From Aliiroseovarius pelagivivens (lineage in GTDB: Bacteria > Pseudomonadota > Alphaproteobacteria > Rhodobacterales > Rhodobacteraceae), in NCBI RefSeq assembly GCF_900302485.1, contig NZ_OMOI01000001.1, positions 1,736,001 to 1,800,000 of the forward strand: DNA of 64,000 bases. The letters run 5' to 3'. Made by a program: the position numbers and the translations under genes. The notes below the pieces were generated by a model. It was not told where the DNA came from. It did no database searches and saw only the letters and a list, made by a program, of their open reading frames with translations. Of the stretch, positions 46,620-60,627 are shown one piece after another; the stretch's first letter is position 1, and every line of letters starts with the position of its first letter.

Positions 46620-47048
46620 TCAGGCCGCACGGGCGACGTTATAAAGCTCGTTCAGAAGATCCAGAAGCGTTTCCATTTTATCGGTTCCGAACTTTTCTTC
46701 CAGGTCTTCATAAATCCCGGCAGCCTTCTGCGACATGGCGCTGTATTTCTCGCGGCCCACTTCTGTGATCTGTACGCGGCGGCGGCGGGCGTCGGTGTCT
46801 TCAATCCGTTCGATCAGCCCGCGTTCCGTCAGCGTTTTCAGGATGCGTGACAGGCTGGGGGGCATCAGGACGCACCGTTCAGCCAGCTCAGTGGCGCAGC
46901 AGGCTTTGCCTTCGGCCAGCACCCGGATGACGCGCCATTGCTGTACGGTCAGGCCGATATCATCGAGTTCCTGACGGAAGGGTTTGAGGGTCGCCTCACG
47001 AGCGTGAAGCAGAGCCAGAGGCAGCGCGCGATCGAGTTTCTTCATCAT
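46620..47048 (-). CDS. MarR-family regulator, HpaR-like
   Basis: 142 residues. It starts with two adjacent ATGs; the first has AAAGGA 6 bp before it. The winged helix reads ALPLALLHAREATLKPFRQE, LTVQQWRVIRVLAEGKACCA, ELAERCVLMPPSLSRILKTL, TERGLIERIEDTDARRRRVQ. This is similar to HpaR, the repressor of homoprotocatechuate degradation. The next upstream gene is an HpaF-like isomerase, which supports the name, but no other hpa gene is in the window. It overlaps that gene by 53 bp. Confidence 0.85.
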   Translation of the reverse strand: MMKKLDRALPLALLHAREATLKPFRQELDDIGLTVQQWRVIRVLAEGKACCATELAERCVLMPPSLSRILKTLTERGLIERIEDTDARRRRVQITEVGREKYSAMSQKAAGIYEDLEEKFGTDKMETLLDLLNELYNVARAA

Positions 47049-47442
47049 TGTCAGTCCTTTCGCGGATGGCCGCGTGGATCGTGCTCCAACCTTTACGGCT
47101 GAAGCGGGTTTCGATTTCCTGAACCTCGAGACTGAGAATGAAGGGCGTGTCGCCCATCTGCGGGCGCAGCGCGTCCTCAACCGCGCTGTAAAGGGTGTCG
47201 GCGATGGCCTCGCGCGTAGCCTCGTCCCGTCCCTGCCCTAGTCTGAGGATCATATCCAGGAAGTGATACCCGCCTGCCCCATCGCCGATGGCGTCGATGT
47301 CAGCTTCAAACCCGCGGACACGGATACCGCCAATGGGACATTTCCCGGTGGCGACCAGTGTGGTGCGCATGGTTTCGGCAAGGCCCGGCAAGTTTGCCAG
47401 TTGGCTCAACCCGTTGCTGAATTCGAAAGACAGGTGTGGCAT
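46996..47442 (-). CDS. 5-carboxymethyl-2-hydroxymuconate isomerase-like protein
   Basis: 148 residues. A tautomerase-superfamily protein in which Pro2, exposed after Met removal (MPHLSFEFSNGLSQ), acts as the base. It isomerises a ring-cleavage product in homoprotocatechuate breakdown. The match continues with PIGGIRVRGFEADIDAIGDG and FLDMILRLGQGRDEATREAI. The C-terminal 20 residues (TRSRAASGSASRS end) lie in the overlap with the regulator gene and look like a non-conserved extension. AAGGAG precedes the ATG by 5 bp; a GTG two codons earlier is less likely. Confidence 0.85.
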   Translation of the reverse strand: MPHLSFEFSNGLSQLANLPGLAETMRTTLVATGKCPIGGIRVRGFEADIDAIGDGAGGYHFLDMILRLGQGRDEATREAIADTLYSAVEDALRPQMGDTPFILSLEVQEIETRFSRKGWSTIHAAIRERTDNDEETRSRAASGSASRS

Positions 47443-47516
47443 GTTCACTCCTTAACACTGGTAGTAAATACCCATCGCTTCTAAATTGCAAATCATTGCA
47501 GGTGCAACAAGTTGTC

Positions 47517-48749
47517 TCAGGTGGTGACGACACCCGCCGTAACCCACGCATCGAACTCGGCCAGCACACGATCCGAAAATTCCGCGTCGTTGATGTGGCT
47601 GTCCAACTCGATCAGCGTCACGTTGTCTGGACAATGGGCGCGGATCTCGTCGATGAAAGCGGAAAGTCCATCTGCGTCGTGCAGCGGACCTCCGGGACGG
47701 TCCCATTCATTACCGCCTTCAAGCGGCAGGATCAGGTTCACCGGGCCTTTTGCGCCAGCAAGCTGGGTGCACATGGCCTGCGCCATTTCGCGCCGCTGAT
47801 CGGGGGTCATCATGACCGAGGACAGAAGCCGGTTGTGTGCATGCACCTCCTGCCCCGCCAGTTTCGGCGGTACATCCTGCCAGCCGATGAAATCGACCAG
47901 ATCATAGCAACCGATCGACACCATCTGCGGCGTTCCGGACGCGCCTGCATTGGTCATCCGGTCCGGCCCGGCAGAGATTGTAGATCCCATGATATGATTG
48001 CCCAGCTCTTGCGGGGCGAAGTCCAAAACGGCGGCGAAAGCGCACTCTCCCGCGAGGCTTTCGAACGCACGACCACCCATGCCGGTGGCGTGGAAAACAG
48101 CAACCTCGTACCCGCGCTCCTCCAGTGCCGGTTTCAGGCTGACCATGTAGCGCAACACGGTTTTCCCGAAGCTGGTCATGCCGATCAGTGGTTTTTGGAA
48201 GTCTGGTTTTTCGACCGCGCGGGCTGCACCCAGCACGGCTCCTGCCGCTTGCGACAGCGACGCCTTGCAGATCGAGTTCAGCCCGTAAAGTCCACCCGCC
48301 CAAAGGATCATCTGCACGTCCGCAGGCAGACGTTCCGGCGGGATCAGGGGCGAGAAGCTGACGGTCGAGACCACGTATTTCGGAACCCCAATCGGCAGCG
48401 CCTGACACAGGTCCAGCGCGGCATCCGTGCCCATCGTGCCGCCCAGCACGATCAACCCGTCAAACACGCCTTCGCGGTAAAGTTTCAACGCCAAAGCCGC
48501 CGAGCCCTGCGCCATGATCTGCATGGCTGTGTTCTCGTCGCCGCTGTCGATGGCGGCTTGAATGGACGACCCACCCGCCTCGGCCACGTCATGCTTCGAG
48601 TAGTCACACGGGGCGCTGGGATCGCCCAGAACCGAGATGTCCATCGTGGCAACAGCGCCACCCTGTTCGCGGATCACGTCGGCAATATAGTTCAGCTCTT
48701 CATCTTTGGTGTCATAGGTCCCGACAACCAGAATTGTCTTGTCGCTCAT
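47517..48749 (-). CDS. Tm-1-like ATP-binding protein (UPF0261)
   Basis: 410 residues. The N-terminal half starts KTILVVGTYDTKDEELNYIA and has GLIVLGGTMGTDAALDLCQA; the C-terminal half includes PLIGMTSFGKTVLRYM and GMGGRAFESL. Both halves match the family of the tomato Tm-1 virus-resistance protein, whose N-terminal domain binds ATP. Bacterial roles are unknown, though family members often lie in catabolic operons. Its start overlaps the ALDH stop (ATGA), so it is translated with the dehydrogenase. Confidence 0.9.
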   Translation of the reverse strand: MSDKTILVVGTYDTKDEELNYIADVIREQGGAVATMDISVLGDPSAPCDYSKHDVAEAGGSSIQAAIDSGDENTAMQIMAQGSAALALKLYREGVFDGLIVLGGTMGTDAALDLCQALPIGVPKYVVSTVSFSPLIPPERLPADVQMILWAGGLYGLNSICKASLSQAAGAVLGAARAVEKPDFQKPLIGMTSFGKTVLRYMVSLKPALEERGYEVAVFHATGMGGRAFESLAGECAFAAVLDFAPQELGNHIMGSTISAGPDRMTNAGASGTPQMVSIGCYDLVDFIGWQDVPPKLAGQEVHAHNRLLSSVMMTPDQRREMAQAMCTQLAGAKGPVNLILPLEGGNEWDRPGGPLHDADGLSAFIDEIRAHCPDNVTLIELDSHINDAEFSDRVLAEFDAWVTAGVVTT

Positions 48750-50230
48750 AGTTGCATCCATGCTGTCTTGAGGTCGAAATACTTGTCGAACGCGTGCATC
48801 GATTTGTCGTGCCCGTTGCCCGATTGTTTGACGCCGCCCAAGGGCACCGTTCCGTCGGGGCCACCATAGGTATTCACGTGTACAACGCCCGCCTGAATGT
48901 TTCGCACCATGTTGTGCGCGCGGCTGAGGTTCGACGTCCAAACCCCTGCGGCCAAACCAAATTTCGTCGAATTAGCTATGGCAACGGCGTCTTCATCCGA
49001 AGCGAACGGTGTCACGGCCAGAACCGGACCGAAGACCTCGTTCTGGGCCACATTGTGTTCGGGCTTCACACCTTTCAGCACGGTCGGCTCCATGAAATAG
49101 CCCCCCGTGTCTTGCATGATCCGCGAGCCCCCCAATGCAATCTCTGCGCCCTCTTCGATGGCTTTCGTCACGAAGTTCAGGTTGCCTTCCAATTGGGTCA
49201 GGTTGTTCACCGCACCGATGTTGGTGGTCAGGTCCAGCGGATTGCCGACTTTCATCGCGGCGGCGTGACGCGACAGCGCCTCGACGAACTCATCGTGGAT
49301 GCTCTCTTCAACCAACAACCGAGACCCCGCCACGCAAACCTGACCCGCATTGCGGAAGATGCCTGCTGCCGAGACCTTGGCGGCCTGTTCCAAATCCGGG
49401 GCATCTGCGAAGACCACATTGGGGGATTTCCCGCCCAACTCCAGATAACAGCGCTTCAAGTTCGACCGGGCCGAGTATTCCAGCAGTCGACGCCCCACCC
49501 CACCGGACCCGGTGAAGACTAGAACGTCCACGTCCATGGACATGGCCAGCGCCTCGCCCGTGACGGACCCCGCCCCGGTGACGACGTTCAACACACCATC
49601 GGGCAGCCCTGCTTCGGCGGCCAATTCAGCAAGCTTCAGCAGCGACAATGACGCGGTTTCTGCCGGTTTCAACACCACCGAGTTCCCGGCTGCCAGCGCA
49701 GGCGCCAGCTTCCATGACCCGATCATCAGCGGGAAGTTCCACGGCACAATCGCGCCCACGACGCCCACGGGTTCCTTGTGCACAAGGCCCAGAATACCCG
49801 GTGCCGTCGGGGCGATCTCGCCATACACTTTATCCAACGCTTCGGCGTAATAGCGGAAGGTGCCCGCGGCTGACCCAGGCTCGGCCTTCAGGGCCATCCC
49901 AATCTCGGTCCCGTTGTCGCGCACGCCCAGAACGGCCAGTTCCAGGGCATTGGCCTCGATCAAATCGGCCAGCTTATGCAGCACCTTCTTGCGGTACGCC
50001 GGAGCTGCACGCGACCAGCGCCCATCATCAAAGGCACGACGTGCTGCCGCAACAGCCCGATCCACATCCGCAGCCGAAGCCCGTTCAATCGTGGTCAGTC
50101 TTTGCCCGTCAATCGGCGAGAAAACGTCTTGCGCTTCGCCCTCAGCTTCTTGCCACGCTCCGTCAATATATAGTTTCTGCGGCGCGACAGGATGGCGGGA
50201 AAGCTCGTTGATGCGTGACTGATCTGCCAT
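48746..50230 (-). CDS. NAD(P)-dependent aldehyde dehydrogenase, PuuC-like
   Basis: 494 residues. The catalytic Glu264 is in YLELGGKSPNVVFADA and Cys299 is in FRNAGQVCVAGSRLL; the cofactor region is IVPWNFPLMIGSWKLAPALA with VVLKPAETASL. It resembles gamma-glutamyl-gamma-aminobutyraldehyde dehydrogenase (PuuC) and betaine-aldehyde-type enzymes. Its setting, between a solute transporter and a Tm-1-like protein and near a glutamylating ligase, suits oxidation of an amine-derived aldehyde. Its start lies 136 bp inside the 3' end of tctA. Confidence 0.92.
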   Translation of the reverse strand: MADQSRINELSRHPVAPQKLYIDGAWQEAEGEAQDVFSPIDGQRLTTIERASAADVDRAVAAARRAFDDGRWSRAAPAYRKKVLHKLADLIEANALELAVLGVRDNGTEIGMALKAEPGSAAGTFRYYAEALDKVYGEIAPTAPGILGLVHKEPVGVVGAIVPWNFPLMIGSWKLAPALAAGNSVVLKPAETASLSLLKLAELAAEAGLPDGVLNVVTGAGSVTGEALAMSMDVDVLVFTGSGGVGRRLLEYSARSNLKRCYLELGGKSPNVVFADAPDLEQAAKVSAAGIFRNAGQVCVAGSRLLVEESIHDEFVEALSRHAAAMKVGNPLDLTTNIGAVNNLTQLEGNLNFVTKAIEEGAEIALGGSRIMQDTGGYFMEPTVLKGVKPEHNVAQNEVFGPVLAVTPFASDEDAVAIANSTKFGLAAGVWTSNLSRAHNMVRNIQAGVVHVNTYGGPDGTVPLGGVKQSGNGHDKSMHAFDKYFDLKTAWMQL

Positions 50231-51735
50231 TCGTCTTTCTTTCTTTCCTTATAGTCCAGCCAGACCCGGCGGAAATGCAGGATCAGGACCAGAACGATCA
50301 TTCCAAACAGGATCGCCGCGATGGGGCGATCGATAAAGTCCAAGGGGGTCTTCACGCGCGCCATGGCGCTGCGCAGTTTCACTTCCATGATGCCGCCCAG
50401 CACCATGCCCAGAACGATGGGCACGACGGGCAGTTGCATGCGTTTCATGATGAAACCGAAAATACCGAACGCGGCGGCGATGATGCAGTCCGTCAGCGAG
50501 TTGCGCAGGCTATAGACCCCGACGAAGCTGAGGATCAGGATGCAGACACCAAGGAAGCGGTTGGGGATCTTCACCACTTTGATCAGCTGGTTCGTTGCGA
50601 CCAGAAGGAAGATCACCACCAGCACATTCAGGATCAGAAGCGCCAAGTACAGCGCCACCACAAAATCCATGTCGTTCTGGAACAACTGCGGGCCGGGGAT
50701 CACGTTGTGCACATAGAAAACGGACAGCATCATCGCCGTCAACGCTTCGCCCGGAATGCCCAGCGCCAGAAGTGGCACCATAGCCGCGCCGGGGACCGCG
50801 TTATTGGCGGTTTCAGCTGCGATCAGACCTTCGCTGGACCCGTGGCCGAAATCCTCGGGCCGCTTGGATGATTTCTGCGCGTAGGTGTAGGACATGAACT
50901 GCGCGGTGAACTCGCCCACGCCGGGGATCATGCCCATGACCACACCAAACGTGGCCGAAATACCTGCAATACGCGGGTGGCGCGCTAGCTCGCGAAAGCC
51001 CTGAAAGAAACTGCCCTTCAACTTGGTCAGTCGGACCTTTTCGTCGTCGCCATGCAACAGCGTAAAGGCCTGTGACAGCGCGAAGAGACCCAACACCACC
51101 ACGATCAGGTTCACCCCGCCGGACAACCAGCTTTGGTCGAACGTATAGCGCTTGGAATAGCTCGCCGAATGCAGGCCGATGGAGTTTAACCAGATGCCAA
51201 AGCAGGCCATTGAGGCGGCAATCAGTGTGTGTTTCCGGTGCGCCGTGACGACAAGGATGATGCCCAGAAGGGCTGCCAGAAATATCTCACGCGAGCCGAA
51301 CATGGGGGCGATCTTTGCCAGAACTGGCGCGAAGAAGATCAGACAAACGACCGAGAATATACCGCCAAAGAAAGACGAGCTATAGGCCAGCGACAGTGCG
51401 CGCCGTGCCTCGCCCCGCGTGGTCATGGGATAGCCATCGTAGGTGGTCAACGCATTCACCGCCGTGCCCGGCGTGTTGATCAGAATTGCGGGGATCGAGC
51501 CCCCGTACATCGAACTGCCGTAAATACCCAAAAGCACCGTCAGCCCCACAATGGGGTCCATGCTGAACGTCGCTGGCAACAAAATGGCAATGGCCACAGC
51601 CGGGCCAACCCCGGGGATCGCGCCGATCAGAACGCCGCCAACCGAGCCTACCAGAAGCGCCAGCACCACGTCCCAACGGGCCAGAACCGAGGAACTGGCC
51701 TGCACTTGCGCAAGGAAATCGTATATCAAGTCCAT
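50095..51735 (-). CDS. tctA: Tripartite tricarboxylate transporter, large permease TctA
   Basis: 546 residues, about 12 membrane helices. Family landmarks: VGGVLIGAIPGVGPAVAIAI, LLGIYGSSMYGGSIPAILIN followed by TPGTAV, and the second-half equivalent GMIPGVGEFTAQFMSYTYAQ with ALGIPGEALTAMML. It works with TctB and a periplasmic TctC. Its last 45 residues, a basic tail (SRRRNYILTERGKKLRAKRK), are read through the first 136 bp of the ALDH gene in another frame. Without it the length would be about 501, the usual size. Confidence 0.93.
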   Translation of the reverse strand: MDLIYDFLAQVQASSSVLARWDVVLALLVGSVGGVLIGAIPGVGPAVAIAILLPATFSMDPIVGLTVLLGIYGSSMYGGSIPAILINTPGTAVNALTTYDGYPMTTRGEARRALSLAYSSSFFGGIFSVVCLIFFAPVLAKIAPMFGSREIFLAALLGIILVVTAHRKHTLIAASMACFGIWLNSIGLHSASYSKRYTFDQSWLSGGVNLIVVVLGLFALSQAFTLLHGDDEKVRLTKLKGSFFQGFRELARHPRIAGISATFGVVMGMIPGVGEFTAQFMSYTYAQKSSKRPEDFGHGSSEGLIAAETANNAVPGAAMVPLLALGIPGEALTAMMLSVFYVHNVIPGPQLFQNDMDFVVALYLALLILNVLVVIFLLVATNQLIKVVKIPNRFLGVCILILSFVGVYSLRNSLTDCIIAAAFGIFGFIMKRMQLPVVPIVLGMVLGGIMEVKLRSAMARVKTPLDFIDRPIAAILFGMIVLVLILHFRRVWLDYKERKKDEWQISHASTSFPAILSRRRNYILTERGKKLRAKRKTFSRRLTGKD

Positions 51736-51742
51736 GCTGCCC

Positions 51743-52432
51743 TCAGAAATTCAGGATGAAGAACGAGCGCAGCGCGCCCGGAAGATATTCATAGATGGCC
51801 GCACCGGGGATCTTCACTTGAAGGAAGCTTTTGAAGACCAGAACAACCGTGACGGCGAAGACAGCAGCGCTCCACATCATAAGACGCGAGCGGTAGCCGA
51901 CCCGCCATGTCAGGATCAACGAGAACGCGATGGTGACCGGCAGATACCCGATAAGCGGAACCAGAAGCACATACGTCAAAAACCATCCGGCCCATTCAAA
52001 GACGGACGCCCAGATCTTGGCTTCGCGCCGGTCGGTCCAGTGCTGGTACAGCCATGTCACGCGAACAATGGCGACCAGGAACACCATGGGGGCCGCACCA
52101 ATCGGCCCAAGCCAAAGCGCCAGCCCTATGGCCAGCACGGCCCATGACAGGCTTTCAGCCCATTGCAGCCAATCTGCCTCGCGCATCCAGCGCGGAAGGA
52201 GGCGGGGTTTGCGCGGCAAATGCCAGAAATGCAGTGCCGTAAACAGCACCATGCCGCCGACACCGATTGCCGGCCAAAATCGGGGTTGCGCGAAGAAGTC
52301 TTTGCCTTTCAGCCACTTGGTTTGATCTTCAATGGCAGCCAACAGCAACGTGGCGCAAATCAAAAACAAGGCTGCAAACAACACCTGACCACGCTGAGGT
52401 CGATCGGGATGTTCGGTGATTTCGTCGCTCAT
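51743..52432 (-). CDS. tctB: Tripartite tricarboxylate transporter, small subunit TctB
   Basis: 229 residues, four or more membrane helices (GQVLFAALFLICATLLLAAI; IGVGGMVLFTALHFWHL; SWAVLAIGLALWLGPIGAAP; LTYVLLVPLIGYLPVTIAFS; AAVFAVTVVLVFKSFL). Position between tctC and tctA, 7 bp before tctA, fixes the role. It is longer than the usual TctB of about 150-190 residues because of a central soluble loop. Confidence 0.88.
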   Translation of the reverse strand: MSDEITEHPDRPQRGQVLFAALFLICATLLLAAIEDQTKWLKGKDFFAQPRFWPAIGVGGMVLFTALHFWHLPRKPRLLPRWMREADWLQWAESLSWAVLAIGLALWLGPIGAAPMVFLVAIVRVTWLYQHWTDRREAKIWASVFEWAGWFLTYVLLVPLIGYLPVTIAFSLILTWRVGYRSRLMMWSAAVFAVTVVLVFKSFLQVKIPGAAIYEYLPGALRSFFILNF

Positions 52433-52511
52433 ATCGGGCGCTTTCCGGGGGGCTTATGCGTCACACGGGGCCAGCCACAGCCAGCCCCGCGAAAGGTCTT
52501 GTTAGATGAGA

Positions 52512-53453
52512 TTACTCAAGGATCCCGCTGATCACGGCACCGGTTTCCTGGTCGCCAGCGATGCGTGCGGCCGAAGCTTCAGCATCCATCCAGTACACCA
52601 GTGCACCGGTTTCCTTGGCAACTGCCTGAGCACGGTCGCTCATCACTGTTTTAGCGGCAACAGCGGCGATCTTCTCGCGCACGTCGGCCGGTGTGTCTTT
52701 GGTCACGAACAGGCCGTTCCACAGAGCGATATTCAACATCTCATCCAGTTCGCCGATTGTGGGCGTGTCCGGCACAAGGCTGATACGCTCGTCGGTGACC
52801 GCCATTAGGACTTTCACATCGTCAAGGCAGGGTAGGATCAGCTGCAGTGTGGTGTTGATAACGTCCGCGTCGCCCGAGGCCAGCGTGTTGCAGTCCAGCG
52901 CATCAAACGCCGCGTCCGAGCCCCACTCGAAGCCAGCATTCTTCGCGTAGGCCTTGGTGACCTGCGTCGGCGTCAGCACGTCGCCAAAGTGGCCCAGCGC
53001 GACGTCGTTTTCTTTGGCGTAAGCCGCCAGCTCTTCCATAGAGCTGTAGGGCGCGTTGCCCGAAGTCGCGACCACGAAGGGATAGGTCAGGAAGATGCCG
53101 ATCGGGTCGAACTTGGCCGGGGCCAGCTCGTCGATGCCGATCTCGTGGCCGATCACGGGCACAGCGGGCACGAAGCTGCCAATTGTGTAACCGTCAGCCG
53201 GAGCCGTTGCCACGTCGATTGCACCGGGGAACGGGCCACCGCCGCCACCAGGTTTGTTCACGACGGCAGCCGAGACGCCGTATTCCGCTTGAAAGTCTTC
53301 AGCAATCATGCGGGTCAGCACGTCTTCCAGATCACCCGGAGGCCACGGCACGATGAAGCTAACCGGCTTTTCCGGATATTCGGCCATGGCCGGTGCAGCG
53401 ACCATGGTTGCGGTTACGGCCAGCGCGCCAGCCAGAATGGATTTGGTGTTCAT
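52512..53453 (-). CDS. tctC: Tripartite tricarboxylate transporter, periplasmic binding protein TctC
   Basis: 313 residues. Signal peptide MNTKSILAGALAVTATMVAA with cleavage after PAMA, then the Bug/TctC fold: YPEKPVSFIVPWPPGDLEDV, VVNKPGGGGGPFPGAIDVAT, ADGYTIGSF. The first ligand loop here reads PWPPGDLEDV, where many homologues have P-A-G-G-x-x-D; the change and the acidic residues suggest a ligand that is not a plain carboxylate, but this is only inference. It is the first gene of the tctCBA unit and is divergent from the IclR gene. Confidence 0.92.
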   Translation of the reverse strand: MNTKSILAGALAVTATMVAAPAMAEYPEKPVSFIVPWPPGDLEDVLTRMIAEDFQAEYGVSAAVVNKPGGGGGPFPGAIDVATAPADGYTIGSFVPAVPVIGHEIGIDELAPAKFDPIGIFLTYPFVVATSGNAPYSSMEELAAYAKENDVALGHFGDVLTPTQVTKAYAKNAGFEWGSDAAFDALDCNTLASGDADVINTTLQLILPCLDDVKVLMAVTDERISLVPDTPTIGELDEMLNIALWNGLFVTKDTPADVREKIAAVAAKTVMSDRAQAVAKETGALVYWMDAEASAARIAGDQETGAVISGILE

Positions 53454-53517: not shown

Positions 53518-53629
53518 TTAAAATAGATTGACAGACCGGAGTGATTCCTGTCAACAAATCATTGAACATGTGAACGAAAAACTGCGCAGTCCGCTAGCGG
53601 ACAGGGGCAAAAACCAACCGGAAGACCCT

Positions 53630-54436
53630 ATGGGAACCGCATCCAAAGCTCTGACATTGCTGAATTATTTCAGCCGCGCCCACTCTCAGATCGGACTAAG
53701 CGATCTGGCGCGCCTATCGGGTATGAACAAAGCGACCGTCTATCGCCTGATGGGGGAATTGGCGGATCATGGATTCGTTGAACAGATTGGTGCGGGGCGT
53801 GAATATCGTCTCGGCCCAGCCTTTCTGCGTCTCGCAGCCTTGCGTGAGAAGGCCGTTCCGATGCGCGAACTGGCGCTCGCCGAGCTGACGAAACTCAGCG
53901 AGCTGACTGGCGAAACATCACATATGTCGCTGTTGAACGGCGATGTTCTGTCCAACCTCACCTATAGCTATGCGCACAAGCACGGCACGATGGTGATGAT
54001 GGAAGACGCCGAGGTGCTAGAGCTGCACTCCACCGGCTCAGGTCTGGCCGTCTTAGCCTTTTCGCCCACCCCATTCGTCGACGCCGTCCTAAGCAAACCG
54101 CTTATTGCGCGCACCCCGGAAACCGTCACCGATCCCGCAGCGATTCAAGCTTTGCTGCCAAAAATTCGCAAACGCGGAATGGCACAGTCGATCGGTGGCT
54201 ATGAACGGGATGTCTATTCCCACGCCGTGCCAATTTTCGACGCCGGGTCGCATTGTATCGGCGCGATGGCCGTCGCCGCCCCTGTCTCGCGTATGACCGA
54301 CGAGCTGAGATCGACGATCCAAACCGAACTTGCCCTTGCAGCCCGGCGCACGACGCGCGTGCTTGGGGGCTTCCCGCCTGACAGTTTTCCAAAAATCAAA
54401 ACAACAGACTCTCCTGTAGAAAGCGAGCTGACATGA
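53630..54436 (+). CDS. IclR-family transcriptional regulator
   Basis: 268 residues. The winged helix comes first (GTASKALTLLNYFSRAHSQI, GLSDLARLSGMNKATVYRLM, GELADHGFVEQIGAGREYRL), then the IclR effector-binding domain (about 90-255; GETSHMSLLNGDVLSNLTYS, LAVLAFSPTPFVDAVLS, DVYSHAVPIFDAGSHCIGAM). ATG at 53630 with GGAAG is preferred; the frame extends to a TTG at 53528 through residues with no family match. It overlaps the aminotransferase gene (ATGA), so it likely controls it and the divergent tctCBA unit. Confidence 0.9.
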   Translation: MGTASKALTLLNYFSRAHSQIGLSDLARLSGMNKATVYRLMGELADHGFVEQIGAGREYRLGPAFLRLAALREKAVPMRELALAELTKLSELTGETSHMSLLNGDVLSNLTYSYAHKHGTMVMMEDAEVLELHSTGSGLAVLAFSPTPFVDAVLSKPLIARTPETVTDPAAIQALLPKIRKRGMAQSIGGYERDVYSHAVPIFDAGSHCIGAMAVAAPVSRMTDELRSTIQTELALAARRTTRVLGGFPPDSFPKIKTTDSPVESELT

Positions 54437-55785
54437 AAGATTCCAACTTTCTGAAAGAAAAGAACGCCCGTTCGCTCTGGCATCCGATGGCGCATCCCGC
54501 CGACAGCCTTCAGAACCCGCCCACCATCATCACCGGCGCATCCGGCGTGAAGATCAAGGACGTCGACGGGCACGAGGTCGTCGACGCCGTGGGCGGTCTG
54601 TGGAACGTGAACCTTGGCTTCTCGAACCAGCCCATCAAGGATGCGATTTCTGCCCAGCTGGACACCCTGCCCTATTATTCGACCTTCCGGGGCACCACCA
54701 ATGACAAGGTGATCGAGCTGTCCGAGCTTCTGCGTGATTTCTTCGAACCAGATGGCCTGACACGCGCGTTTTATACCTCGGGCGGGTCGGACAGCGTTGA
54801 GACCGCTCTGCGTCTTGCGCGCCAGTATCACAAGGTGAAGGGCGACGCTGGCCGCACCAAATTCCTGAGCTTGAAGAAGGGTTATCACGGCACCCATATG
54901 GGCGGCGCGTCGGTGAACGGAAACGCCAACTTCCGCACCCAATACGAACCGCTTCTGCCCGGCTGTTATCACATCCCCGCGCCGTATACCTATCGCAACC
55001 CATTCAATGAAACGGACCCCGAGCGTCTGGCGCAACTGTGCTTGCAGGCGATGGAAGACGAGATCGCGTTCCAAGGTGCGAACACCATCGCTGCCATGAT
55101 CATGGAGCCCATTCTGGGCGCAGGCGGCGTCATCCCGCCCCATGAAAGCTTCATGCCCGGTGTGCGCGAAATTTGCTCGAAGCACGGCATCTTGCTGATC
55201 GCCGACGAGGTCATCACAGCTTTTGGCCGCACCGGTGGCTGGACCGGCAGCCGGTACTGGGGCGTCCAGCCTGATTTCATGTGTACGGCCAAGGCGATCA
55301 CCAACGGGTACTTCCCCTTTGGCGCAGTGATGATCGCTGACCATGTGGTTGAAACCTTCGAGAAAGACACCACGGGCGCCGCCGCTATCGGCCACGGCTA
55401 CACTTATTCGGGTCACCCCGTCGGGGCCGCTGCTGCGGTTGCCTGTATGGAAGAAACCCTGCGCCTGAAGGTAAACGAAAACGCCGCAGCGCGCGGAGCC
55501 GAGTTGTTCGCGGGTCTGCAGAAATTGGCCACCGAACATGACATCATCGGAGATGTTCGTGGGGGCCACGGGCTGATGTGTGCCTTGGAACTTGTGTCGG
55601 ACCGCGCCACCAAAGCATCCGTCGACAAAAAGACCATCGGCACCCTGCAAGAGGTCGCCTATCAGAACGGCGCGATGGTGCGCGTTTCTGGCCCGAACGT
55701 CATCATGTCGCCGCCGCTGGTGCTGACGTCAGAGGATGTGCAGACCATTCTGTCCGCGCTGAAGGCGGGTTTCGCTGCCGTCTAA
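54433..55785 (+). CDS. Class III (omega) aminotransferase
   Basis: 450 residues, PLP fold type I. Features: WHPMAHPADSLQNPPTIITG, AFYTSGGSDSVETALRLARQ, GYHGTHMGGASV, MIMEPILGAGGVIPPHESFM, LIADEVITAFGRTGGW and the PLP lysine in MCTAKAITNGYFPFGAV. Enzymes of this group use putrescine, beta-alanine, GABA or similar omega-amines with pyruvate as acceptor. Coupled to the IclR gene (4-bp overlap), and close to the glutamylating ligase and ALDH, it would fit the last or first step of amine breakdown. Confidence 0.9.
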   Translation: MKDSNFLKEKNARSLWHPMAHPADSLQNPPTIITGASGVKIKDVDGHEVVDAVGGLWNVNLGFSNQPIKDAISAQLDTLPYYSTFRGTTNDKVIELSELLRDFFEPDGLTRAFYTSGGSDSVETALRLARQYHKVKGDAGRTKFLSLKKGYHGTHMGGASVNGNANFRTQYEPLLPGCYHIPAPYTYRNPFNETDPERLAQLCLQAMEDEIAFQGANTIAAMIMEPILGAGGVIPPHESFMPGVREICSKHGILLIADEVITAFGRTGGWTGSRYWGVQPDFMCTAKAITNGYFPFGAVMIADHVVETFEKDTTGAAAIGHGYTYSGHPVGAAAAVACMEETLRLKVNENAAARGAELFAGLQKLATEHDIIGDVRGGHGLMCALELVSDRATKASVDKKTIGTLQEVAYQNGAMVRVSGPNVIMSPPLVLTSEDVQTILSALKAGFAAV

Positions 55786-55805
55786 ATCCCTAACGAAACG
55801 AACAC

Positions 55806-55832
55806 AAAGGCCGCCCCTATCGGGCGGCCTTT
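55806..55832. terminator. Terminator between aminotransferase and VOC gene
   Basis: An 11-base stem AAAGGCCGCCC/GGGCGGCCTTT with a CTATC loop. It ends at the stop codon of the convergent VOC gene and may act in both directions. Confidence 0.85.
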
Positions 55833-56199
55833 ATCTATGTTGGTCGATCAGGATGGGAAAGCCGTCGGGATCAGTGACCATGAAGCTGCCCGGTCCCTCT
55901 GCCCCGCCCTGTTCTTGCGCGACTTCAATCCCAGCCGCCGCAAGCTGCGCCTTGATCGCGCGCACATCGTCAAACGGGTCCACATTTGTAGCGTTCTGAT
56001 CCCAGCCGGGATTGAAGGTCAGCATCGCGCCTTCAAACATCCCCTGAAACAGCCCCACCAGCGTGTCGCCGTTTTTCATGATCAGATAGTTGTGATCCTC
56101 GGTTCCTGCATAAGCGGTAAAGCCAAGTGCTTCGTAAAACACGCGTGAAACGGCCAGGTCCTTGACGCCAAGGCTGACGGAAAACGCTCCGAGTTGCAT
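55831..56199 (-). CDS. VOC-family (glyoxalase/bleomycin-resistance-like) protein
   Basis: 122 residues of two beta-alpha-beta-beta-beta modules: LGAFSVSLGVKDLAVSRVFY, EALGFTAYAGTEDHNYLIMK and FMVTDPDGFPILIDQHR. Family activities are diverse, and no metal-ligand set stands out. It is 53 bp downstream of the ferredoxin gene on the same strand and may be part of the ferredoxin-ligase-P450 unit. Confidence 0.85.
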   Translation of the reverse strand: MQLGAFSVSLGVKDLAVSRVFYEALGFTAYAGTEDHNYLIMKNGDTLVGLFQGMFEGAMLTFNPGWDQNATNVDPFDDVRAIKAQLAAAGIEVAQEQGGAEGPGSFMVTDPDGFPILIDQHR

Positions 56200-56252
56200 G
56201 ATGTGATCCTCCTTTTGCTACGAGTGTAGCACAGGTCACACTCACGCTGGCT

Positions 56253-56564
56253 TCAGACAGGAACAACCAGCCGGATGCCGTCCAGTTCATCCGAGGCTTC
56301 GATCTGGCAAGACAGGCGCGAGGCATCGGTGACTTCGCCATCCGCCATGTCCAGCATCGCCTCTTCAAAGTCGCCCTTTTCGCCGGTTTTGGACAGCCAA
56401 TCACCGTCCACATGCACATGGCACGTTGCACAAGACAAAGACCCGCCGCATTCACCCTGAATGCCCGCAATATTGTTGGCTTGGGCGGCTTCCATCAGGT
56501 TCACGCCCGTCTGGACATCTGCCATAACTTCCTCGCCCCCAGGCAAGACCCAGGTTACTTTCAT
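56253..56564 (-). CDS. Adrenodoxin-type [2Fe-2S] ferredoxin
   Basis: 103 residues. Cluster cysteines are Cys39, Cys45, Cys48 and Cys86 (GECGGSLSCATCHVHVDGDW, then RLSCQIEA), the CX5CX2C...C spacing of vertebrate-type electron carriers that serve P450s. It lies 25 bp beyond the glutamine-synthetase-like gene and in the same unit as a P450, so it is the likely electron donor. No ferredoxin reductase gene is in the window. Confidence 0.94.
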   Translation of the reverse strand: MKVTWVLPGGEEVMADVQTGVNLMEAAQANNIAGIQGECGGSLSCATCHVHVDGDWLSKTGEKGDFEEAMLDMADGEVTDASRLSCQIEASDELDGIRLVVPV

Positions 56565-56589
56565 CTTCTATCTCCTTGCTTTTCAGACC

Positions 56590-57879
56590 TTAAATGAAGT
56601 TCACATAGAAATCGCGCAGCCCGTCACCTTCCAGATCGCGGGTTTTGATGACCTCTTTGCGCTTCATGAATATGTGATTGTCGACCAGCAGACGGCCAAC
56701 GCGATCGCCAAGCACTGTGTCGGCTTCAAGATCCTTCATCGCGGCTTTCAGGTTCACTGCCGTGCCGTCTTTGGCCTCGGTGCGATCAAACCCATCCCCG
56801 CCTTCGATCGGACCAAGCGGATAGTTGTTTTCTAGCCCCAGCAATGACGCCTGCAACACCGCGGCGACCGCCGTATAGGGGTTGGCCGCAGCATCTGCCA
56901 TCCGGTGCTCCAGCCGCGATTTCGCGCCGCCTTCGCCCGAAATTCGCGTAGTGACATTGCGGTGATCCCCGCCCCAATTGCGCCAATAGCCCGACAGGGA
57001 TCCCGGCTGCAAACGCTGGTAGGAATTCGTCGTTGGCGCGACCAGCCCCGCCAGCCCCTTGTGGTGATGCATCAGGCCCGAGATACAGCCGCGTGCCAAA
57101 TCGTTCATATGCTCGGGTCCGCCCACGGGGCCGTTGTCCAACGCATTTCCGCCCGAGCGATCCCGGAAGCTATAGTTGATATGCATGCCCGATCCGCCAG
57201 CCTCGGCAATCGGTTTGGGCATGAACGTCAGGACAAGCCCGTGCTCCAGCGCCACTTCGCGTGCCATCTGGCGGAACAGGACAATGTCGTCCACATGCTT
57301 CAGCGCCTCGTCAAAGGTCAGGGTGAACTCGAACTGCGGGCTGTCATACTCGCCCGTCATCATTTCCAGATTGAAGCCCAGCTTCTCGGCGCGTTCCCAG
57401 ATGTCGTCGGTAAAGCGCAGCGGATCGGTGAACGGCCCGGTGCCATAGACCACACCACCCGGCGCGTCATAGGGGACAAGGCGCCCGACTTCGTTGGCCA
57501 TCAGGGCAAAGCATTCCAGTTCGATTCCCACCATCGGGGTCAAGCCACGCTCTTCCCACGCCGCAATTGCACGTTTCAGCGCCTGCCGCCCGCACAAGTC
57601 CAACGGCACGCCATCCTGATCGTACAGATCACCAATGACAATCTGCGTCGAGGACTCCCACCCTTCGCGGATGTCTTCGGCCCGCCAGCGCAGCTCCATA
57701 TCCGGCAAGCCTTCCTTCATCATCGCGCCGGGCGCGTCCAGAAGGTCCTTGTCGTAGTGCACGCCATAAGTGGACCGGCAAAACCGCGTCTCGTTGTTGC
57801 CGATTTTCGAGCCGGGCAGATATTTGCCACGCAGAATGCTTAGGTGATCAAGCCACAAGGCCCGCAAACGATCTTTCAT
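56590..57879 (-). CDS. Glutamine synthetase-like gamma-glutamyl-amine ligase
   Basis: 429 residues. The catalytic domain is intact: GIELECFALMANEVGRLVPY, MTGEYDSPQFEFTLTFDEAL, GSGMHINYSFRD (ammonia/amine-site His), and LEHRMADAAANPYTAVAAVL. The N-terminal domain is not that of a true GlnA; it is closer to PuuA/GlnA3-type ligases, which join glutamate to an amine using ATP. The acceptor amine is unknown. The gene is placed between a ferredoxin and a P450 on the same strand, 41 bp after the P450. Confidence 0.9.
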   Translation of the reverse strand: MKDRLRALWLDHLSILRGKYLPGSKIGNNETRFCRSTYGVHYDKDLLDAPGAMMKEGLPDMELRWRAEDIREGWESSTQIVIGDLYDQDGVPLDLCGRQALKRAIAAWEERGLTPMVGIELECFALMANEVGRLVPYDAPGGVVYGTGPFTDPLRFTDDIWERAEKLGFNLEMMTGEYDSPQFEFTLTFDEALKHVDDIVLFRQMAREVALEHGLVLTFMPKPIAEAGGSGMHINYSFRDRSGGNALDNGPVGGPEHMNDLARGCISGLMHHHKGLAGLVAPTTNSYQRLQPGSLSGYWRNWGGDHRNVTTRISGEGGAKSRLEHRMADAAANPYTAVAAVLQASLLGLENNYPLGPIEGGDGFDRTEAKDGTAVNLKAAMKDLEADTVLGDRVGRLLVDNHIFMKRKEVIKTRDLEGDGLRDFYVNFI

Positions 57880-57920
57880 GTTCTCTCCCTGCCCGGTGAT
57901 CCGGGTCGTCCCCTTCGGGG

Positions 57921-59180
57921 TTATTTGGCCTGCATTGTCACAGGCAGTTCCTTGATCCCGCCCACGAAATTCGAGCGCAGGAATTTGTGGTCCCCGGCAG
58001 GTTCCACCATTTTCACGCGTTTCGCCAGTTCTTCGAACAAGACACGCACCTCAAGCCGCGCCAGATGCATGCCCAGACAGACATGCGGGCCGCCCTGCCC
58101 GAAGGACATATGGCGGTTGGGGCTGCGGTGCAGGTCCACACGATTGGGGTCGTCAAACACCTCTTCATCGCGGTTGGCGGATGACCACCAGTACAGCACC
58201 TTGTCGCCTTCCTTGATAAGCTTCCCGTGCATTTCATGATCGCGCGTGGCGGTGCGGCGGAAGTAAAGCGCGGGCGTGGCCCAGCGGATAATCTCGTCCG
58301 GCGCGGTGGACCAGATATCCCCGCCCACTTGCATCTGACCGAGCAGTTCCTGCTGATGCGCCATCGCCTGAATGCCCGCAGCAATCGAGTAGCGTGTTGT
58401 GTCGTTGCCAGCGGCCACAAGCAGACAGAAGAAGTTGCGGAACTCTTGTTCCGGCATCACGTCTCCGTCGCGGTTCGGCTGCAAAATCATGTGCAGAACA
58501 CCATCGGTGTCGCCCTTGCGGTTCTTTTCCTCGATCAGACGCTTGGCATAGTCGAACAACTCGGCCCCGGCGGGCGAGTTGAACGGCATCATCCGGTATT
58601 CATCGGTCTGCATCTTGTCCAAGACGTGATCGGTGAAGTCCGGGTCGGTGTTGGCGATCAACGCATCGCCCTTTTCAACCAGCCACGGCAGGTCTTCATC
58701 GGGCGTGCCGATGATCCGACCCAGCATCATCATCGGCAGTTGGCGGGCGATTATCTTCGTGGCATCGAACGTGCCAGCCTCAAGAGCAGCGTCCAGAATG
58801 GGGTGGCACAGCTCGCGGATCTGATCTTCGAAGCCTGCAACGACAGGGCGCGAGAACGCCTTGCCCACCATCACACGGGTTTTCATATGCTCGGGTGGGT
58901 CGGTTTCCTGAAAGGTGCGGCGGGCCAGATATTCCTCGTAGGTCTGGTCCTCCATCCGGATCCCACGGGCCGAGGACATCAGTTCGTAATTCCGGTTCAG
59001 CTCGGTGATGTCCGCATGGCGCACCACGTTCCAGAAGCCTTCGCCCCCGTCCCAATCGGTCCAACTCAGCGGGTCTTCACGGCGTAGGCGCGCAAAGGTG
59101 TTATGCGGTGCGCCATTCACAAACGTGTCGTGGCTGGACAGATCCGCGAATCCATCATCCTGTGGGGTCCAAACGGTCAT
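57921..59180 (-). CDS. Cytochrome P450
   Basis: 419 residues, soluble. The haem loop is FGQGGPHVCLGMHLAR with the cysteine at about residue 368; the I-helix reads LLVAAGNDTTRYSIAAGIQA (A-G-N-D-T-T); the K-helix ExxR is in PDEIIRWATPALYFRRTA. This is a class I bacterial P450, needing a ferredoxin, which is encoded nearby. Two ATGs lie close together; the second, at 59180, leaves 6 bp to GGGAG. Divergent from the amidotransferase. Confidence 0.95.
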   Translation of the reverse strand: MTVWTPQDDGFADLSSHDTFVNGAPHNTFARLRREDPLSWTDWDGGEGFWNVVRHADITELNRNYELMSSARGIRMEDQTYEEYLARRTFQETDPPEHMKTRVMVGKAFSRPVVAGFEDQIRELCHPILDAALEAGTFDATKIIARQLPMMMLGRIIGTPDEDLPWLVEKGDALIANTDPDFTDHVLDKMQTDEYRMMPFNSPAGAELFDYAKRLIEEKNRKGDTDGVLHMILQPNRDGDVMPEQEFRNFFCLLVAAGNDTTRYSIAAGIQAMAHQQELLGQMQVGGDIWSTAPDEIIRWATPALYFRRTATRDHEMHGKLIKEGDKVLYWWSSANRDEEVFDDPNRVDLHRSPNRHMSFGQGGPHVCLGMHLARLEVRVLFEELAKRVKMVEPAGDHKFLRSNFVGGIKELPVTMQAK

Positions 59181-59266
59181 GCGCATCTCCCTGGCGTTTT
59201 TGCTGTTGTATATAGCGCGTCTATAAATATATTAGAGAACATGTTAAATATGTAAAGGCCGAAATC

Positions 59267-59980
59267 ATGCGCATCGCAATTCTGATGGCAAACACGGATG
59301 ACAGCAGCTTTGCCGACCAACACCCAAAGGACGGCGAGAAGTGGACCGCGCTGCTGTCTCATCAGCGCCCGGATTGGGACTATGTGGCCTTTTCCGTGAA
59401 AGACGGTGATTTCCCGCAAGACATTGAAGCCTTTGATGGGTTCGTGATCACGGGCAGCCCGGCTTCGGTCCATGATGTTGATGCGTGGGTAGAGCAGCTT
59501 TCAGACCTGATCCGCACCCTGCATGACCTGCGAAAACCGCTCTTCGGCGCTTGTTTCGGGCATCAAGCCATCGCGAAAGCCCTTGGCGGTAAAGTCGAGA
59601 CCAACCCGGGCGGCTGGGTTTTTGGATCAACTGAGATGGAGATCAGCACGCCTGCCCCGTGGGTCGATGCGCAGCAATTCCGGCTCTATGGCGCCCATAT
59701 CGAGCAGGTGACCCAGATGCCAGAGGGCGCCACAAACATTATGACGTCTGAAGGATGCCCGATTGGTGGGTTTCGCATGGAAGATCATGTCTTCACCACG
59801 CAGAACCATCCTGAAATGACACCAGACTTCATCGCGGCATTGATCGACGAACTGGAAGAAGAAAAGCCCGCCGAGGTGATCGCGTCCGCCCGTGACACGC
59901 TTTCAAAACCCGCCAACGGCCCGCAATTTGCCGATTGGATCGTCAGGTTCTTCGAACACGCAGCAACGGCCAAATCCTAA
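59267..59980 (+). CDS. Class I glutamine amidotransferase-like hydrolase
   Basis: 237 residues. The nucleophile elbow is FGACFGHQAIA with Cys96, and the partner residues His181 and Glu183 are in TQNHPEM. There is no synthase domain. Stand-alone members include PuuD-type gamma-glutamyl hydrolases and GMP-synthase-like proteins of unknown use. Sharing an 86-bp divergent promoter region with the P450-ligase-ferredoxin genes, it would suit removal of glutamate from a gamma-glutamylated product. It overlaps the convergent GntR gene by 4 bp. Confidence 0.88.
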   Translation: MRIAILMANTDDSSFADQHPKDGEKWTALLSHQRPDWDYVAFSVKDGDFPQDIEAFDGFVITGSPASVHDVDAWVEQLSDLIRTLHDLRKPLFGACFGHQAIAKALGGKVETNPGGWVFGSTEMEISTPAPWVDAQQFRLYGAHIEQVTQMPEGATNIMTSEGCPIGGFRMEDHVFTTQNHPEMTPDFIAALIDELEEEKPAEVIASARDTLSKPANGPQFADWIVRFFEHAATAKS

Positions 59981-60627
59981 CCAAGTGCCGCCAGCAGATC
60001 CGTCACGGTCACCCTGTCAAACAAGACGTGTTCAGTCATCAAGGCGCGAGCCTTTTCAGCGTCATGGGCAAGGATCAATTCGGCAATCTGGCGATGCTCG
60101 CGCGCGCTTTCTGCAATCGCACCCGGATTGCGATATCGCGCACGATAGTAGGCCAACAGCTTGCGCCCGTTCATCTTGATCATGTCCAAAAGGAACGGAT
60201 TGCCTGCCGCCTCGGCCACCGTTTTATGGAACGCGAGGTTTAGCGCATAGTACCCATTCGGGTCGCCATCCCCCTTGTCACGGGCATGGGCTTCGCAGGC
60301 TTCGACGATTCGCATCAATGACGCGCCATCCTCGGCCCCAATCCGACGCGCAGCCAAACCTGCCGCCTGCCCTTCCAGCTGAGCGTTCACTTCAAGAATG
60401 GCCAGAAACTCTTCAAAGCTAGGCTTGAACAGCACTGCGCCCTTGCGCGGCGGGCGCGCGACCAACCCCATCGCTTCAAGCCGCAACAACGCTTCGCGCA
60501 GAGGCGTGCGCGAAACCTCATACTGCGCGATCAGCGCATTCTCGTCGATCGTTTCTCCGGGCGATAATTCACCCCTGTCGATTGACGTCAGGATTGCATT
60601 CAGAACGATTTCAGTTTGACCAGCCAT
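59977..60627 (-). CDS. GntR-family regulator with FCD domain
   Basis: 216 residues. A winged helix is at 1-70 (VLNAILTSIDRGELSPGETI, ALIAQYEVSRTPLREALLRL, GLVARPPRKGAVLFKPS) and an all-helical FCD ligand domain follows (FLAILEVNAQLEGQAAGLAA, YYALNLAFHKTVAEAAGNPF, EHRQIAELILAHDAEKARAL) with metal/ligand histidines in HKT, EHRQI and TEHV. FadR-subfamily members sense organic acids. It may control the convergent amidotransferase/P450 unit or the divergent tpa. Confidence 0.88.
   Translation of the reverse strand: MAGQTEIVLNAILTSIDRGELSPGETIDENALIAQYEVSRTPLREALLRLEAMGLVARPPRKGAVLFKPSFEEFLAILEVNAQLEGQAAGLAARRIGAEDGASLMRIVEACEAHARDKGDGDPNGYYALNLAFHKTVAEAAGNPFLLDMIKMNGRKLLAYYRARYRNPGAIAESAREHRQIAELILAHDAEKARALMTEHVLFDRVTVTDLLAALG

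Follow-up and report, generated by a model that had tools for sequence, protein, structure and literature searches.

Background

Certain bacterial systems glutamylate an amine before oxidizing it. For one of these, the Ipu system, PMC6776027 states that the amine is glutamylated and that a cytochrome P450 (P450) system then oxidizes the resulting gamma-glutamyl amide, with hydrolysis by an amidotransferase being postulated. Similarly, the passages of PMC11335346 on AtdA1/NpaA1 and GoaS describe enzymes that glutamylate an aromatic amine before its oxygenation, with an amidotransferase-like gene alongside, and a 15th motif in most GoaS proteins. Here we present an analysis of a stretch of 64,000 nucleotides (the window) from the marine bacterium Aliiroseovarius pelagivivens, corresponding to C1:1736001-1800000 of its 3.33 Mb genome, which carries a cluster coding for a P450, a glutamine-synthetase-like ligase, a 2Fe-2S ferredoxin and a class I amidotransferase. 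We propose that this cluster is catabolic for an arylethylamine, most likely tyramine, acting by glutamylation, ring hydroxylation by the P450, release of the product and cleavage of homoprotocatechuate; this is a tentative reading, to which we give close to even chances.

A preliminary description of this DNA had pictured an amine ligase working with the P450 and the amidotransferase, had drawn on the Puu putrescine pathway and on aniline degradation for comparison, and had named an alkyl- or aryl-amine as the substrate. The partnership of these enzymes is supported in outline, with the P450 and ligase genes adjoining in 81/81 loci, while the substrate is now narrowed to an arylethylamine that would feed homoprotocatechuate ring cleavage.

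Results and discussion

The P450 and ligase genes form a conserved pair

The minus strand carries genes for the P450 (57921..59180; PF00067, p450 1.2e-21), the ligase (56590..57879; PF00120, Gln-synt_C 1.8e-69), the ferredoxin (56253..56564; PF00111, Fer2 3.9e-10) and a single-domain VOC protein (55831..56199; PF00903, Glyoxalase 1.2e-06), and a hairpin at 55804-55834 closes this unit. The amidotransferase gene (59267..59980, plus strand; PF00117, GATase 3.2e-15) diverges from it. All Pfam matches of the cluster proteins exceed their gathering cut-offs, and both frames and domains agree with the earlier account of a ferredoxin, ligase and P450 in one minus-strand unit with a divergent amidotransferase. 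The P450 frame extends to 59186, from which residues are numbered here; its start probably lies at 59180, the relatives listed being mostly of 418-419 residues. Aliiroseovarius sp. PrR006 has a P450 with 99% identity to the one in the window.

Using the P450 as the point of entry, 102 loci were confirmed in genome contigs, of which the best 80 were kept, and with three plasmid loci added, 83 were mapped. The ligase is present in 81/83 of these, the amidotransferase in 78/83, a GntR regulator in 55/83 and the ferredoxin in 53/83. The P450 and ligase genes adjoin in all 81 loci that have both, with a median gap of 50 and a maximum of 199 bases, and this arrangement is therefore more than chance; the two loci in which the ligase was not seen, L068 and L076, are contigs of only 3.3 and 3.5 kb. 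Less constant companions are a class III aminotransferase (AT1, 47/83), an IclR regulator (45/83), the transporter component TctC (42/83) and an aldehyde dehydrogenase (34/83); AT1, IclR, TctABC and the dehydrogenase recur beside the cluster in many genera. The VOC gene (9/83) and a second aminotransferase (13/83) are mostly confined to Aliiroseovarius and near relatives, and the VOC protein is probably not a core component, judging from this distribution.

We also surveyed 149 genomes of the family, one per genus, with counts that ignore kinship and cut-offs of E up to 1e-60 for the ligase and up to 1e-100 for the P450. The ligase was found in 36/149 genomes and the P450 in 34/149, all of the latter being among the ligase genomes (34/36 versus 0/113 others). 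The two genes are at most 3 kb apart in 33 genomes and about 25 kb apart in one (G145). Thus, the pairing of the P450 with the ligase, whose absence elsewhere the preliminary description had named as refuting and for which it had suggested a gene-neighbourhood check, is kept in other genomes.

More distant versions of the cluster were also recovered. Loci from another proteobacterium (L078) and from Dongia (L083) combine P450, ligase and ferredoxin. A Streptomyces canus plasmid locus (L117) was considered as an ortholog and rejected, as it encodes a P450 of 39% identity from which the B-C loop sequence discussed below is absent, and a ligase that does not group with the clade; on these comparisons it is an analogous arrangement only. 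The annotation of the regions surrounding two plasmid-borne ligase relatives, H43 and H41, includes no P450. L114 and L115, as well as eight genomes (G033, G045, G072, G113, G123, G139, G145 and G146), contain a second group of ligases that share 43-50% identity with the window ligase; six of these genomes have a nearby P450 of 50-59% identity, and the group may act on another amine. In a further set of loci, namely L118 (Ruegeria sp. TM1040 megaplasmid), L038, L042, L043, L046, L054, L055 and L058, phenylacetyl-CoA epoxidase genes lie upstream of a run of GntR, amidotransferase, P450 and ligase genes. In these loci, an FkbM-type methyltransferase gene follows the ligase, at the place occupied in other loci by the ferredoxin.

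The cluster is linked to genes of homoprotocatechuate catabolism

The ligase co-occurs with genes of homoprotocatechuate ring cleavage. A homoprotocatechuate dioxygenase of either type occurs in 35/36 ligase genomes versus 25/113 others (Fisher p 1e-16), the VOC-type HpaD being found in 51/149 and the LigB-type in 26/149 genomes. AT1 is likewise seen in 35/36 ligase genomes versus 31/113 others, a gene resembling 3,4-dihydroxyphenylalanine (DOPA) decarboxylase in 31/36 versus 40/113 and HmgA in 32/36 versus 65/113. The copy of the decarboxylase from L053 has a DOPA decarboxylase as its top PDB match (E 1.9e-116).

In several genomes, the genes for what would be nearly the whole pathway are found in single regions. 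G145 encodes, consecutively, the P450, the amidotransferase, AT1, IclR, aldehyde dehydrogenase, UPF0261, HpaR, F, E and D, the decarboxylase, and HpaG, H and I, with the ligase further along the contig. In G003, HpaH, G, D, E, R and F are continuous with UPF0261, aldehyde dehydrogenase, TctABC, IclR, AT1, ferredoxin, ligase and P450. Two Ruegeria loci (L080 and L085) combine the ligase, P450, amidotransferase, AT1 and aldehyde dehydrogenase with Hpa genes and a DOPA-decarboxylase-like gene, and the linkage of the cluster with aromatic-catabolism genes recurs, in varied orders, in Salinihabitans/Shimia loci (L017, L018, L022, L028, L047 and L079).

Across the 83 loci, at least one Hpa gene lies near the P450 in 21, a group II decarboxylase in 13, HmgA in 10 and PaaA in 8; altogether, 29/83 have at least one of Hpa, decarboxylase, HmgA, PaaA or Fah there. 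These are lower bounds, since queries drawn from close relatives and the cut-offs used missed the distant dioxygenases of L078, L116 and L117, whose dioxygenase-like genes were found only by family models and fall under the curated cut-off. With such models, applied to chosen frames, L078 shows a LigB dioxygenase and a decarboxylase, and L083 an HpaE-like dehydrogenase, a fumarylacetoacetate-hydrolase-family protein, an amino acid permease and a ferredoxin reductase. We also observed that the gene at L116:14012-14869, from a plasmid of Novosphingobium sp. EMRT-2, is annotated as catechol 1,2-dioxygenase, yet its product scores 82 bits against the LigB extradiol family (PF02900) and 130 bits, below the cut-off, against the HpaD_Fe model.

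The genome that contains the window also has Hpa genes. At C1:545284-549985, HpaH, HpaD_Fe, HpaE and HpaR pass curated cut-offs, and the same stretch has an HpaG-like gene that does not reach its own; the ring-cleavage dioxygenase HpaD_Fe itself lies at C1:547029-547868 (351.7 bits, cut-off 315.95). HpaF has no match at C1:545284-549985, and of the two matches in the genome the one in the window is the stronger (the other scores 41.9 bits). HpaB_N has no match in this genome at E 1e-10, and hence 3-hydroxylation of the ring would have to proceed without the usual enzyme. A relative of the decarboxylase, 56% identical, was found at C1:1705221-1706609, and visual inspection of the surrounding frames revealed no Hpa gene. 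The genome also has two HmgA genes (L137 and L138, G000 contig C2), each followed by look-alike frames (isomerase-like and Fah-like, partly by eye), and one of these two HmgA matches contains an in-frame TAG.

A proposed pathway for arylethylamines

The gene content, the retained catalytic residues, the adjacency of P450 and ligase, the co-occurrence with the dioxygenase and the near-whole-pathway regions of relatives were directly observed. Gene neighbourhoods make an arylethylamine well supported as the substrate class; we further infer that the substrate is tyramine, as well as the site of hydroxylation, the order of steps and each reaction. The ligase is predicted to join the arylethylamine to the gamma-carboxyl of glutamate in an ATP-dependent reaction. 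The P450, fed by the adjoining 2Fe-2S ferredoxin, would then hydroxylate the ring of the amide, converting gamma-glutamyl-tyramine to gamma-glutamyl-dopamine, from which the divergent amidotransferase would take off glutamate to give dopamine. The class III aminotransferase and aldehyde dehydrogenase may convert dopamine to 3,4-dihydroxyphenylacetate (homoprotocatechuate), whose ring would be cleaved by the Hpa enzymes.

The same neighbourhoods also bear on a different reaction for the P450 within this class of pathway, namely O-demethylation (for instance of 3-methoxytyramine), hydroxylation of phenylethylamine, or oxidation beside the nitrogen to yield glutamine and an arylacetaldehyde. We consider this possible, if rather doubtful. 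The neighbourhood sets the product side, which is homoprotocatechuate (with homogentisate or phenylacetyl-CoA genes in some loci), and not the P450 step itself, so that a demethylation forming dopamine suits the link to the dioxygenase as well as ring hydroxylation does. However, oxidation beside the nitrogen would render the aminotransferase and amidotransferase superfluous, yet AT1 accompanies the ligase in nearly all its genomes, and nothing in particular favours methoxylated substrates. The dealkylation branch of the preliminary description is less likely, because it, too, would require neither the aminotransferase nor the amidotransferase.

If ring hydroxylation of a glutamylated arylethylamine does occur, it would provide a function for a P450 subfamily present in 34/149 sampled genera of the family, and would show by what route tyramine-type amines could be used by bacteria that lack HpaBC. 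A broader version, which we offer with more reserve, is that a widespread route makes dopamine from tyramine only as the gamma-glutamyl amide, through a dedicated P450 subfamily that recognises the glutamyl group, so that entry to homoprotocatechuate without HpaBC would be by way of a catecholamine that is never free.

Sequence features of the enzymes

The ligase retains E120, E122, E184, H233, R289, R312, E324 and R326 in at least 98.5% of 80 rows, which we take to be the metal and substrate residues of glutamine synthetase. It has Leu295 at the flap position, where the GlnA-like protein of the same genome has Glu; this position is Leu or Met in 79/81 rows, the remaining two being Ile and the Tyr of PuuA. 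The flap Glu of GlnA presumably serves the use of ammonia, and its replacement would be expected of amine ligases. In a tree of 21 rows, some of them long, and with a root placed only for display, the window ligase belongs to a 13-member clade (branch 100/100) apart from IpuC and PuuA.

The amidotransferase conserves Cys96, His181 and Glu183 over 79 rows, and its top PDB match is gamma-glutamyl peptidase 1 (9k7i, E 4.1e-22), a plant enzyme. AT1 has an omega-transaminase (5lh9) as its top PDB match. The VOC protein was tried as a candidate ring-cleavage dioxygenase and ruled out, with 22.8 bits to the HpaD model against a cut-off of 321.4.

These comparisons likewise bear on the Puu pathway as a model. 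The preliminary description had held that every Puu role except the oxidase has a nearby candidate. This is apt for the aldehyde dehydrogenase, which is 49.7% identical to Escherichia coli PuuC and is the only cluster protein close to its Puu counterpart (PuuC is also its top NCBIfam model, 556 bits, under the 850 cut-off). It fares poorly for the others: the match of the amidotransferase to PuuD is 29% over 72 residues only, the window aminotransferase is 26% identical to PuuE, and the ligase is distant from PuuA (32.5% over 292 residues). The genome has a closer PuuA relative (39.8%) at another place, C1:533571-534551, in a locus with a frame that by eye resembles a flavin adenine dinucleotide (FAD) oxidase, and the cluster is not the Puu pathway of this organism. 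That it nonetheless serves a Puu-type breakdown of putrescine or polyamines, with the P450 in place of the flavin oxidase, appears most improbable: the roles other than the oxidase are loosely matched nearby, but the ligase scores 168.7 bits against the cut-off of 650 for the GGputSyn model NF045547, and the aromatic link is left unexplained. We note as a separate observation that G000:C1:528000-556000 (L149, L134) brings the PuuA-like ligase, the FAD-oxidase-like frames (by eye) and the Hpa genes close together.

The P450 has the heme-binding cysteine (Cys370) and the motifs EIIR and AGNDTTR. Its designation as class I depends on the adjoining ferredoxin, in which a cysteine stretch is conserved over 54 rows. 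None of the 120 best P450 database relatives listed, of 4556, has a functional name. The B-C loop of the P450, GIRMEDQTYEEYLARRTFQETD, is charged and almost invariant across the rows shown; the Novosphingobium row, at 59% overall identity, shows four changes in it, the Streptomyces row has nothing that matches it, and CYP125 and CYP268 differ from the window P450 there. A charged, conserved loop is what a glutamyl-bearing substrate would suggest, and it might conceivably read the glutamyl group.

Evidence that tempers the proposal

Several observations weigh against tyramine hydroxylation by this cluster. First, CYP124, a lipid hydroxylase, has part of the same B-C loop (DQT..E..EY), so that the loop is poor evidence for recognition of glutamate and our confidence in the proposal is slightly lowered. 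Second, HpaB is rare (17/149) without being depleted in ligase genomes, occurring in 5/36 of them versus 12/113 others (p 0.56). It has no match in 31/36 ligase genomes and is equally rare elsewhere; the idea of the P450 as a simple substitute for HpaB was accordingly dropped, as the anticorrelation expected from it was not found. Third, if the decarboxylase makes dopamine straight from DOPA, the P450 step would be unneeded for that route. Fourth, the Hpa genes and the decarboxylase of the window genome are located elsewhere on the contig. Fifth, the co-occurrence counts, at one genome per genus, are uncorrected for phylogeny. Sixth, two ligase genomes, G069 and G087, have no P450 match at E up to 1e-100, and in G087 (L140, contig C50) the ligase, amidotransferase and GntR genes stand in the usual order with no P450 between them. 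Finally, TctABC usually carries carboxylates and would fit an amine poorly.

Moreover, a scan of flanks of up to 10 kb found no arylacetate gene in 54/83 loci. Taken with TctABC and UPF0261, neither of which has a clear place in amine catabolism, this lower-bound scan is compatible with a role of the ligase and P450 not in growth on a gamma-glutamyl aromatic amine but in its detoxification, storage or biosynthesis. We regard such a role as quite unlikely, given that nearly every ligase genome also has the ring-cleavage dioxygenase and aminotransferase genes, and given the catabolic-type regulators IclR, GntR and HpaR in the region.

Other genes and signals in the region

Both the aldehyde dehydrogenase and the class III aminotransferase are encoded within about 11 kb of the cluster. 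AT1, the proposed arylethylamine transaminase (54433..55785, plus strand; PF00202; PRK07481, 740 bits, cut-off 575), is preceded by a gene for the IclR-family regulator (53528..54436, plus; PF01614, PF09339). The hairpin between AT1 and the P450 unit (55804..55834) is terminator-like in both directions, with a stem of 13 pairs on the minus strand and 11 on the plus. On the minus strand lie TctA (50095-51735), TctB (51743-52432) and TctC (52512-53453), spanning 50095..53453; these open frames match, by tblastn, a region annotated as tripartite tricarboxylate transporter in Ruegeria sp. TM1040. Further along this strand are the aldehyde dehydrogenase (48746..50230; PF00171), which is proposed to convert the arylacetaldehyde to the arylacetate, and a UPF0261/Tm-1-like protein (47517..48753, start approximate; NF002676, 636.6 bits, cut-off 556, for the frame 47517-48941), for which amine breakdown offers no obvious role. 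UPF0261 and TctABC accompany the cluster in many loci, the counts for the former being lower bounds as the query had a reading-frame fault.

The minus strand also encodes two proteins related to homoprotocatechuate degradation. One is an HpaF-like 5-carboxymethyl-2-hydroxymuconate isomerase (46996..47448; PF02962 CHMI, 98.8 bits, cut-off 26.5), which falls below the NCBIfam equivalog cut-off (61.1 vs 215 bits). The other is an HpaR-like MarR regulator (46620..47030; TIGR02337 equivalog, 122.2 bits, cut-off 121.2). On the other side of the cluster is the GntR/FCD regulator (59977..60627, minus; PF00392, PF07729). A promoter-like site of the P450 unit, TTTACA, 16 nt, TAATAT, lies at 59229..59256 on the minus strand. 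The number of such sites in the region is near chance (4 found vs 2.9 expected); of 84 upstream regions collected, 30 were inspected by eye, and many of these showed similar sequences.

Comparison with known systems

Of the described systems, the closest precedent is Ipu, in which, as in the window, a ligase, P450, ferredoxin and amidotransferase are encoded together (Pseudomonas sp. KIE171; Paenarthrobacter aurescens TC1). In P. aurescens TC1, pTC1 carries consecutive genes for an amidotransferase, P450, ferredoxin, reductase and ipuC, with a similar set on pTC2. Because Ipu encodes the same functions together, the pathway idea is not new in kind; what seems new is the probable substrate class, an aromatic amine such as tyramine, combined with a P450. 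Among the matches listed from titles and abstract openings of an open-licence library, there was none for a bacterial P450 route through gamma-glutamyl tyramine or dopamine.

The shared set of functions would be accounted for if the window cluster broke down isopropylamine or another short alkylamine in the manner of Ipu, with hydroxylation of the gamma-glutamyl amide at its alkyl group by the P450. We think this unlikely, as the parts are dissimilar. In a comparison with the pTC1 proteins, the ligases are 28% identical over 400 residues and the P450s 26%, while the pTC1 ferredoxin (68 residues) has no significant similarity to that of the window (E 0.88). The adjacent PuuD-like amidotransferase of pTC1 is also not significantly similar (E 0.16), and a second one reaches 26.8% (E 2e-16). 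The ligases fall in separate clades, the closest IpuC relative in the window genome is another gene (37.8%, L003), and the link to aromatic catabolism has no place in an alkylamine pathway. Ipu further includes a reductase gene, whereas the cluster proteins scanned with Pfam included no ferredoxin reductase, and it is tied to alaninol oxidation, whereas the window cluster is tied to aromatic ring cleavage. Membership in Ipu was rejected on the comparison with the pTC1 proteins and both IpuC copies, the branch that sets the window ligase clade apart having support of 100/100. Since the parts are not orthologous, the window cluster is, as judged from these alignments, a separate assembly sharing the logic of Ipu. 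If so, the strategy of glutamylating and then oxidizing an amine would have been assembled more than once from different parts.

The aniline Atd system, which the preliminary description had cited, holds as a precedent for glutamylation before oxygenation, with Ipu being the nearer one. In Atd/Npa, oxygenation is by a dioxygenase acting on anilines and naphthylamines, whereas here it would be by a P450, probably on arylethylamines; no ring-hydroxylating dioxygenase was found beside the ligase among the cluster proteins scanned. GoaS-type ligases, like the window ligase, have the glutamine synthetase catalytic domain with the flap Glu of GlnA replaced. The Puu system of E. coli shares with the window the roles of ligase, aldehyde dehydrogenase, hydrolase and aminotransferase, and no flavin oxidase of the PuuB type was found among the same proteins; a Puu assignment was rejected on the distance of the ligase and amidotransferase from PuuA and PuuD and on the better PuuA relative elsewhere. 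Lastly, genes for HpaD, E, F, G, H, I and R are found in ligase genomes, often in the same regions as the cluster, and the P450-ligase module would constitute another entry to the Hpa pathway.

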